A program made the translations under genes and the position numbers. The notes beneath the pieces were generated by a model. That model did no database searches. It worked only from the letters and a program-made list of their open reading frames with translations, and was not told the origin of the DNA. A stretch of DNA of 64,000 nt, taken from assembly GCA_944384745.1 (NCBI GenBank), contig CALWUO010000006.1, forward strand, positions 1 through 64,000. Reading direction: 5' to 3'. How positions within the stretch are numbered: the first letter of the stretch is position 1; every line of letters starts with the position of its first letter. This DNA comes from an uncultured Butyricicoccus sp. Lineage in GTDB: Bacteria; Bacillota; Clostridia; Oscillospirales; Butyricicoccaceae. This document shows, one piece after another, positions 59,878 through 61,243 of the stretch.

Positions 59878-59911
59878 ATAAAAAAATGCTGTGAGGATAA
59901 ATCACAGCATT
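59878..59911 (-). terminator. Terminator of mgsA
   Basis: Leftward AATGCTGTGA and TCACAGCATT form a perfect 10-bp stem followed by seven T. It ends the mreC-to-mgsA transcript and lies between mgsA and hisS. Confidence 0.85.
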
Positions 59912-59920
59912 AAAATAAAT

Positions 59921-60328
59921 TTAGTGAGTTTTAGGGTTTACAATATTTCTCCAATCGAGGTCGCCTCTATCAAGACCTAAAATCAACATTTCAGCAGTAG
60001 CTGAATTTGTTGCTATTGGTATATTGTGCATATCGCAAAGTCTAGCTAAAGCGTGAACATCAGGTTCATATTCACTATTAGACATTGGGTCTCTGAAAAA
60101 TAATACAAGGTCGATTTCATTATATGCTACACGGGCAGAAATCTGCTCCTCACCGCCCTGCATTCCCGCAAGATATTTTTCAATTTTAAGCCCAGTGGCT
60201 TCCGAAACAAATTTTCCTGTAGTACCAGTAGCACAAAGGTTATGTTTTGCCAAAACACCGCAATATGCCATACAGAATTGTACCATAAGTTCTTTTTTGC
60301 GGTCATGTGCAATCAGAGCGATATTCAT
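59921..60328 (-). CDS. mgsA: Methylglyoxal synthase
   Basis: Converts dihydroxyacetone phosphate to methylglyoxal and phosphate, a glycolytic overflow valve. It is 135 aa. IALIAHDRKKELM at the start, TGTTG in the phosphate loop, QGGEEQISARV near 65, the catalytic Asp in FFRDPMS near 88 and the closing SATAEMLILGLDRG are conserved. I start it at 60328, 8 bases after AAAGGGG; an earlier in-frame ATG adds residues not seen in the family and would overlap minD. It is 28 bp after minD. Confidence 0.95.
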   Translation of the reverse strand: MNIALIAHDRKKELMVQFCMAYCGVLAKHNLCATGTTGKFVSEATGLKIEKYLAGMQGGEEQISARVAYNEIDLVLFFRDPMSNSEYEPDVHALARLCDMHNIPIATNSATAEMLILGLDRGDLDWRNIVNPKTH

Positions 60329-60356: not shown

Positions 60357-61094
60357 TTAAATACGCATAATTGGTAACCTAACACCATCTATTCTCTGTG
60401 CAATATTACAAAAAGCAGTTGAAGCTCCACTTTTTTTACAAATAAGACATCTTCCATTGCTACCATATGAGATAACATTTTCATCTTCTGGAACTATACC
60501 TAAAAGTGGAAGACCTATTTCGTCCATAATATCATCTATATTACCCATAATACCTTGACGAATTAGAGAAGGTCGAACCCTGTTAACAACTATACGAATA
60601 CGCATTATATTTTCCTGTTCGAGCAGTCTAGCGACTCGCTCAGCTCCCCTGACACTTGCTGTATCTGGCATTGTAACAACAATAGCCTGAGTTGATACAC
60701 AAGCAAATAGTTTAACTTCATCGCCAAGACCTGCTGGGCTATCAATTATAACATATTCAAAGCCAAGATTTTTCGACTGAGTAATAATATCAGCGATTTT
60801 ATTTTCATCTAGTTCAGGAAGTTCTATTGGTGCAGTTAGAAGATAAAGATTTTCCAGTTCATGATGTTTTGCCGCTGCTTGTTCAAGTGAAACAACGCTC
60901 AAAGCAACATCAGCAAAACTAAAAACCACTAGGTCACTCATACCTAAAACAATATCAAGATTTCTAAGACCTACATCTGAATCTATGACCAAAGTTTTAT
61001 GACCTTTTTGAGCAAGTGCCGCTGCAACATTTGCAGTAACAGAAGTTTTACCTGTGCCACCTTTGCCCGATGTTACTAAAATCACTTTAAACAT
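60357..61094 (-). CDS. minD: MinD-type ATPase lacking the C-terminal membrane-targeting helix
   Basis: Deviant-Walker ATPase of the Min division-site system, 245 aa. The P-loop is SGKGGTGKTS near residue 9; DSDVGLRNLDIVLG near 38, DSPAGLG near 117 and VVNRVRPSLI near 165 match MinD closely. The usual amphipathic helix after the RNIARRILGE region is missing: the protein ends IAQRIDGVRLPIMRI. The segment before it carries an extra cysteine pair in RCLICKKSG. I start it at 61094 (GAGG close upstream). It sits between mrdA and mgsA with neither minC nor minE beside it. Confidence 0.88.
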   Translation of the reverse strand: MFKVILVTSGKGGTGKTSVTANVAAALAQKGHKTLVIDSDVGLRNLDIVLGMSDLVVFSFADVALSVVSLEQAAAKHHELENLYLLTAPIELPELDENKIADIITQSKNLGFEYVIIDSPAGLGDEVKLFACVSTQAIVVTMPDTASVRGAERVARLLEQENIMRIRIVVNRVRPSLIRQGIMGNIDDIMDEIGLPLLGIVPEDENVISYGSNGRCLICKKSGASTAFCNIAQRIDGVRLPIMRI

Positions 61095-61243
61095 ACTGCC
61101 TCTATTACTCCTCTTAATTTTAGTATAAAGCATTTGAAATAGATATACAAGGTTTTCTCCAACTTTTAGCGAAAAAAAGATTTTATTTTATATATATTGC
61201 ATAACACAAAAATTGCCTATCAAAATTTATATATGCAAATATA

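Follow-up and report, generated by a model that had tools for sequence, protein, structure and literature searches.

The 64,000-nucleotide stretch of DNA analysed here (hereafter the window) comes from an uncultured Butyricicoccus sp., a genus placed in the class Clostridia. It contains a minD gene that lies between mrdA, whose end is 149 nt upstream, and mgsA, whose start is 28 nt downstream, with neither minC nor minE adjoining it. The encoded MinD has no membrane-targeting helix. Our survey of 97 genomes from the same order, which we take to be Oscillospirales, indicates at the level of sequence that MinD of this order has lost the helix, both partners (MinC and MinE) and its binding residues for them, and has kept the nucleotide switch. 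Membrane binding and activation of MinC are usually taken to be the job of a bacterial MinD; here a natural and conserved MinD appears to do without either.

Results

The minD open reading frame (ORF) is clean and real, and its product passes the curated MinD model TIGR01968 (228.3 bits, cut-off 212.9); of the 9 genomes of the order in our class sample just 2 pass it, counting that of the window, and a congener scores 212.5. The best structure matches are MinD chains (4v03, 4v02 and 3q9l). A MipZ model aligns with residues 4–52 only (24.3 bits, cut-off 20.7). The deviant Walker A motif, with its signature lysine, and both switch regions are intact (Table 1). Past the conserved proline of GVRLP, the protein ends after four residues (IMRI); this ending is identical in four further Butyricicoccus records, whose MinDs are 82–90% identical to that of the window, and a fifth sequence with the same genus code (L010) ends in IMRL. 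An AlphaFold2 model built from five sequences was discarded (mean predicted local distance difference test score 42).

A preliminary description of this locus had proposed that the membrane-targeting helix is missing and that the protein is about 20 residues shorter than usual. We agree on both points: the four-residue tail forms no amphipathic helix and is 18 residues below the median tail (22 residues) of 70 MinDs from MinC-positive genomes of the class. The stop had been judged clean rather than a sign of decay, which matches the intact frame, the purifying selection described below and the common ending of the four Butyricicoccus records. A sequencing frameshift near 60360 had been raised as a concern, and we rejected a hidden frameshift at the C-terminus because those four records share the ending. 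The supposedly unusual cysteine pair did not survive comparison. C216 is present in all five Butyricicoccus sequences and C229 in four of the five, but C219 is private to the window: at the place of this second cysteine of its CLIC, the relatives read KH, TN, KH and KS. With no CxxC conserved among the five sequences, a CxxC metal site was rejected.

Table 1. Positions of minD, its docking region and the neighbouring features in the window
Feature	Position	Strand	Description or basis
minD	60357..61094	-	245 aa; deviant Walker A SGKGGTGKT, switch I DSDVGLRNLD and switch II DSPAG intact; end ...IDGVRLPIMRI without amphipathic helix
MinD residues 144–168, starting with the helix-7 region (MinC/MinE docking face in E. 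coli MinD)	60591..60665	-	alignment
mgsA (methylglyoxal synthase), directly downstream of minD	59921..60328	-	135 aa; TIGR00160, 151.4 bits, cut-off 146.9
Promoter-like site between mrdA and minD, TTGTAT-17 nt-TATACT	61122..61150	-	conservation
Intrinsic-terminator-like hairpin behind mgsA, 10 pairs followed by a T run	59885..59911	-	sequence scan

The short tail is a property of most of the order. We searched the 97 genomes, which include that of the window, with a MinD threshold of E <= 1e-25, and a class sample of 156 genomes with a MinD match, 9 of them in the order; the genomes are in part metagenome-assembled and at least 90% complete. The class set contains 98 MinC-positive genomes with MinD, of which 70 were read and 28 were not, and 39 MinC-negative genomes from outside the order were read. 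Ten weak MinD matches (E 2e-26 to 1e-39) and three MinC-positive genomes without a MinD match were left out, and L009, very likely the same genome as L054, was not counted as an extra witness. MinD was detected in 87 of the 97 genomes of the order, representing 21 of the 22 sampled families, and all 87 sequences were read. Their tails past the conserved proline have a median length of 6 residues, with 12 or fewer in 74 sequences and 15–23 in the other 13; tails of the 70 MinDs from MinC-positive genomes range from 17 to 29 residues. We scored a tail as amphipathic if it had at least four of F, I, L, M, V and W plus two of K and R within a segment of 9–11 residues, a crude rule of our own on which the tail lengths do not depend. 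By this rule, amphipathic tails occur in 70/70 MinC-positive sequences, 8/87 sequences from the order and 21/39 MinC-negative sequences outside it.

The surface that docks MinC and MinE has changed as well. Helix 7 of E. coli MinD carries the contact shared by the two partners, formed by S148, D154 and I159 (review, PMC6803595, in part). In E. coli numbering, the window MinD has D146, A148, G152 and E154 in place of E, S, D and D, so that the docking residues S148 and D154 are A and E; the latter is E152 of the window protein in an alignment with 3q9l. D154 is kept in 70/70 MinDs from MinC-positive genomes, 36/39 from MinC-negative genomes outside the order and 1/87 from the order. At position 148, S or T is found in 69/70 MinC-positive sequences, and the commonest residues in the order are T (24), A (19), V (13) and S (10). 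E146 follows the same pattern (67/70, 21/39 and 7/87), as does M193 (69/70, 26/39 and 5/87), which has a role in MinC binding. K11, G12, G13, G15, K16, D40, D47 and D120 are each invariant in all 87 MinDs of the order. In this order the switch has therefore been preserved and the known docking face altered.

Two further groups stood out in this comparison. Four MinC-less genomes from one family outside the order (L172, L174–L176) form a second group with a four-residue tail and have kept both D154 and M193; they may represent an intermediate state. In MinC-less genomes of 0.8–1.2 Mb (L166–L168, L170 and L179), the C-terminal region of MinD is aberrant and the tail long, e.g. GFMGYIRRNIKR; one genome of this group has a weak MinE match, and the MinDs of L166–L168 have N in place of D154.

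No genome of the order (0/97) has a Pfam MinC match over the cut-off, five giving weak matches in frames of 481–541 residues; the same search was positive in both controls, B. subtilis and E. coli. A profile built from 20 clostridial MinCs likewise returned five weak, partial matches in the order (E 1e-4 to 0.01; frames of 481–541 residues). Across the class, its hits were the 101 Pfam-positive genomes, including the 20 that had contributed sequences to it, and one additional weak match. The window genome has no MinC match with either method and no MinE over the cut-off, its four weak MinE matches being led by one of E 0.0015 in a 758-aa frame; 98 genomes of the class sample are MinE-positive, none of them among the nine from the order. 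We rejected a minC hidden in the mrdA-minD gap, which has a median length of 123 nt at 41 loci of the order versus 841 nt at 58 MinC-positive loci, and three long gaps in the order (425–1991 nt) contain no MinC-like ORF as judged by eye. In one gap (L031, G066) there is an apparent small insert of two genes that look, as judged by eye, like a PIN-type toxin-antitoxin pair. DivIVA gave three matches over the cut-off in the window genome, the best (81 bits) adjoining sepF, in a search whose control was noisy (13 of the 14 control genomes gave a match, 5 of them over the cut-off). Two further proteins, on contigs G000:C18 and G000:C5 (L044 and L045), have DivIVA-like stretches barely above the Pfam cut-off, in frames of 798 and 250 aa.

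A phylogeny was built, with the tail columns removed, from 102 of the 200 sequences, namely every second MinD of the order (44 of 87), all 39 from MinC-negative genomes, 18 of the 70 from MinC-positive genomes and one of the four extra Butyricicoccus sequences. MinDs of the order form one clade (Shimodaira-Hasegawa-like approximate likelihood ratio test 93, from a quick search with long-branch warnings, and under the starred level of support). The tree requires seven changes for the short tail and four for MinC; hence, tails were also lost outside the order, in our sample in MinC-less genomes only. Within Butyricicoccus, minD is under purifying selection and is not a relic. The ratio of non-synonymous to synonymous substitution rates (dN/dS, by NG86) is 0.08–0.11 for the window against the four other records and 0.08–0.14 when all ten pairs of the five sequences are taken, with some pairs approaching saturation (dS up to 1.2); YN00 gave 0.02–0.07 for the five of ten pairs for which it returned a value. 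Pairs with more distant genera are mostly saturated, and one gave 0.29. Purifying selection on mgsA is stricter (dN/dS 0.01–0.06 by NG86, six pairs).

The position of minD in the window, with mrdA upstream and mgsA downstream, resembles that of the min genes of relatives. MinC-positive relatives typically have the order mrdA-minC-minD-minE-(rodA)-mgsA, and genomes of the order have (mrdA)-minD-mgsA, which is the equivalent locus minus minC and minE. mrdA lies upstream in 41 of the 87 loci, and 17 of the other 46 had less than 2.5 kb of upstream sequence. At 85 of the 87 loci mgsA follows minD on the same strand at a distance of no more than 200 nt (median 34 nt). These include 27 of the 29 loci whose upstream sequence spans 2.5 kb or more and contains no mrdA. 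Since mgsA also follows the min genes in 39 of 70 loci of MinC-positive relatives (median 326 nt), the linkage is ancestral. hisS has been retained as well (23/28). Nine of the ten genomes of the order scored as MinD-less have mgsA, and at four of these nine loci (L224, L225, L226 and L231) a diverged MinD-like ORF, below our search threshold, lies just upstream of it.

The hexamers of the promoter-like site upstream of minD are identical in 6/6 sequences (the window, the four Butyricicoccus records and a congener whose MinD is 67% identical). A consensus scan did not list this site, which has 3/6 matches to TTGACA, and the five hits that it did return do not exceed those in shuffled sequence (mean 5.8). 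Because the promoter-like site is conserved and a terminator-like hairpin lies behind mgsA, minD and mgsA are likely to form a transcription unit of their own in the window, apart from the mre/mrd genes. Among the latter, mrdA (TIGR03423) and mreC (TIGR00219), like mgsA, were named by models over their cut-offs and mreD weakly (24.3 bits, cut-off 34.85); on contig C6 (60000–72000), mreD is preceded upstream by mreC, maf, a U32-peptidase gene and zapA (Pfam).

The preliminary description had placed minD in an mre/mrd cluster with no adjoining minC, minE or divIVA. mreB is absent from that cluster, sitting on contig C37 of the same genome, and the most constant neighbour of minD is mgsA, not an mre/mrd gene. 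The absence of minC, minE and divIVA is true of the locus; genome-wide, the searches for minC and minE that had been suggested support it, but divIVA is present. The test suggested for a clade of short-tailed MinDs recovered that of the order, whose MinDs are mostly short-tailed. Beyond these claims, we find that the trait spans the order and that the MinC- and MinE-binding residues have changed too.

Discussion

We consider it somewhat better than an even bet that the MinD of this order is a soluble, MinD-type ATP-dependent dimerization switch with a new partner. The protein would cycle in the cytoplasm between an ADP-bound monomer and an ATP-bound dimer, and the remodelled helix-7 face would bind the different partner. 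In B. subtilis, the membrane-binding-defective MinD I260E is almost exclusively cytosolic, has ATPase activity below detection and gives a phenotype comparable to that of a minD knockout, and the authors suggest that membrane binding is the trigger of hydrolysis (PMC13246001, in part). If hydrolysis in B. subtilis is triggered at the membrane, a helix-less MinD would therefore need another trigger or none; the new partner, or DNA, could provide it. A MinD of this kind could hardly act as a membrane-bound activator of MinC.

Several observations weigh against this reading. We found no partner, and we infer from the sequence that the protein is soluble. Of the 13 longer tails in the order, 8 are amphipathic by our rule, so weak membrane contact may survive in these MinDs, and K or R occurs within the last three residues in 73 of the 87 tails. 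The window MinD itself retains M193. Outside the order, loss of MinC has often left both the helix (21 of 39 tails amphipathic) and D154 (36 of 39) in place, and the losses are thus not one mechanical chain; the ten short-tailed MinDs outside the order all keep D154 (10/10) and hence represent separate cases. A comparison of MinC loss with tail loss in independent pairs had too few events (2–4 pairs; sign test p = 1). Lastly, at five mgsA loci in the order there is no MinD-like ORF upstream of mgsA, from which it follows that MinD is dispensable in some genomes.

The best-surviving alternative, which we nevertheless regard as unlikely, is that MinD reaches the membrane through an adaptor, either a DivIVA-bound MinJ-like protein or a protein of the mre/mrd cluster, and positions division or wall synthesis. 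The window genome has DivIVA beside sepF, mrdA is upstream of minD at 41 loci (or more, given those with little upstream sequence to inspect), and MinCD of B. subtilis is placed by MinJ and DivIVA (PMC3856364, in part). Against this, B. subtilis I260E is cytosolic and knockout-like despite the presence of MinJ and DivIVA (PMC13246001, in part), and MinD is kept in 20 of the 23 genomes of the order that have no MreB match (E <= 1e-40), compared with 67 of the 74 that have one.

It is slightly less probable again that MinD binds the nucleoid in the manner of ParA or MipZ, a latent affinity for DNA having taken over, and helps to place the chromosome; this could equally be phrased as a soluble switch whose partner is DNA. 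E. coli MinD binds DNA, and a cytoplasmic version that lacks its last 10 residues and carries R251E and R254E is enriched on the nucleoid (PMC3792344, in part). The window MinD is similarly helix-less, with L240 and M243 at the places of R251 and R254 (alignment with 3q9l, the second by extension), and MinD is retained in genomes that have neither MreB nor MinC. However, the 10-residue truncation alone nearly abolished DNA binding, and R219, whose replacement strongly reduced it, corresponds to S209 in the window MinD (PMC3792344, in part). The core of the window protein is also acidic, with an isoelectric point of 5.04 and a net charge of -7, and the median isoelectric point in the order, 5.47 versus 4.99 for MinDs from MinC-positive genomes, is but a slight shift.

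A regulatory connection to MgsA, in which MinD regulates the enzyme or is co-regulated with it as a two-gene unit, strikes us as doubtful. The near-constant adjacency of the two genes, including at loci without mrdA upstream, the promoter-like site and terminator-like hairpin that bracket them, and the diverged MinD-like ORFs at 4 of the 9 mgsA loci of MinD-less genomes all fit such a link, but the adjacency is ancestral, hisS is retained too, and five of the nine MinD-less genomes with mgsA have no MinD-like ORF upstream of it. We know of no biochemistry that connects MinD with MgsA. Our estimates for the DNA and MgsA explanations overlap with that for a soluble switch with a new partner, so the estimates do not sum to one.

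That MinD is a leftover of a lost Min system, retained by chance, is very improbable; the binding residues do vary widely over the order and a few of its genomes seem to be MinD-less, but the low dN/dS, the invariant ATPase residues (87/87) and the presence of MinD in 21 of 22 families largely refute it. Least credible of all is an artefact of annotation or sequencing, with the helix hidden by a frameshift or an anchor in an N-terminal extension: a start at the in-frame ATG at 61133 would lengthen the protein by 13 residues, and this stretch is similar in relatives, but it overlaps the conserved promoter-like site, and we rejected an N-terminal anchor since an ATG extension of at least 15 residues is possible in just 6 of the 87 MinDs of the order, while the shared C-terminal ending excludes a frameshift.

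More broadly, it is possible, if distinctly speculative, that in most of one order of Clostridia MinD, once a division regulator at the membrane, has become a soluble ATP switch that serves a new client and is encoded together with mgsA in a separate unit, perhaps linking the methylglyoxal side branch of central metabolism to a spatial or cell-cycle switch. Bacteria of this order must choose their division sites without MinC, and their MinD gives a point of reference for the activity of the MinD switch by itself. Our results also suggest that calling this protein "septum site-determining protein MinD" may be misleading in a large part of the order. Our searches of open-licence PMC papers turned up no description of a MinC-less or helix-less MinD in Firmicutes or Faecalibacterium, and none of a MinD tied to methylglyoxal synthase.

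Comparison with known systems

The window MinD has its sequence family, deviant Walker A motif and switch regions in common with canonical MinD (E. coli, B. subtilis, C. difficile; TIGR01968), and its gene occupies the matching position in the canonical mrdA-(minC)-minD-(minE)-mgsA order. It differs from canonical MinD in having no membrane-targeting helix, no MinC and no MinE over the cut-off, and in its changed docking residues. ParA/MipZ-type nucleoid ATPases combine an ATP-dependent dimer switch with the absence of a membrane helix. Unlike them, the window protein takes its name from the MinD model, which it matches over the cut-off (228 bits), with the MipZ model covering its N-terminal part only, and it does not have the R219 of E. 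coli MinD. Archaeal MinD2 of Haloferax volcanii reportedly works without MinC. Tagged MinD2 is diffuse in the cell (PMC11588486, in part); it is an archaeal protein, and we liken it to the window MinD by description rather than by comparison of the loci. Finally, E. coli MinD without its 10 C-terminal residues and with R251E and R254E is also helix-less and cytoplasmic, but is a laboratory mutant (PMC3792344, in part), whereas the state seen in the window is natural and common across the order.
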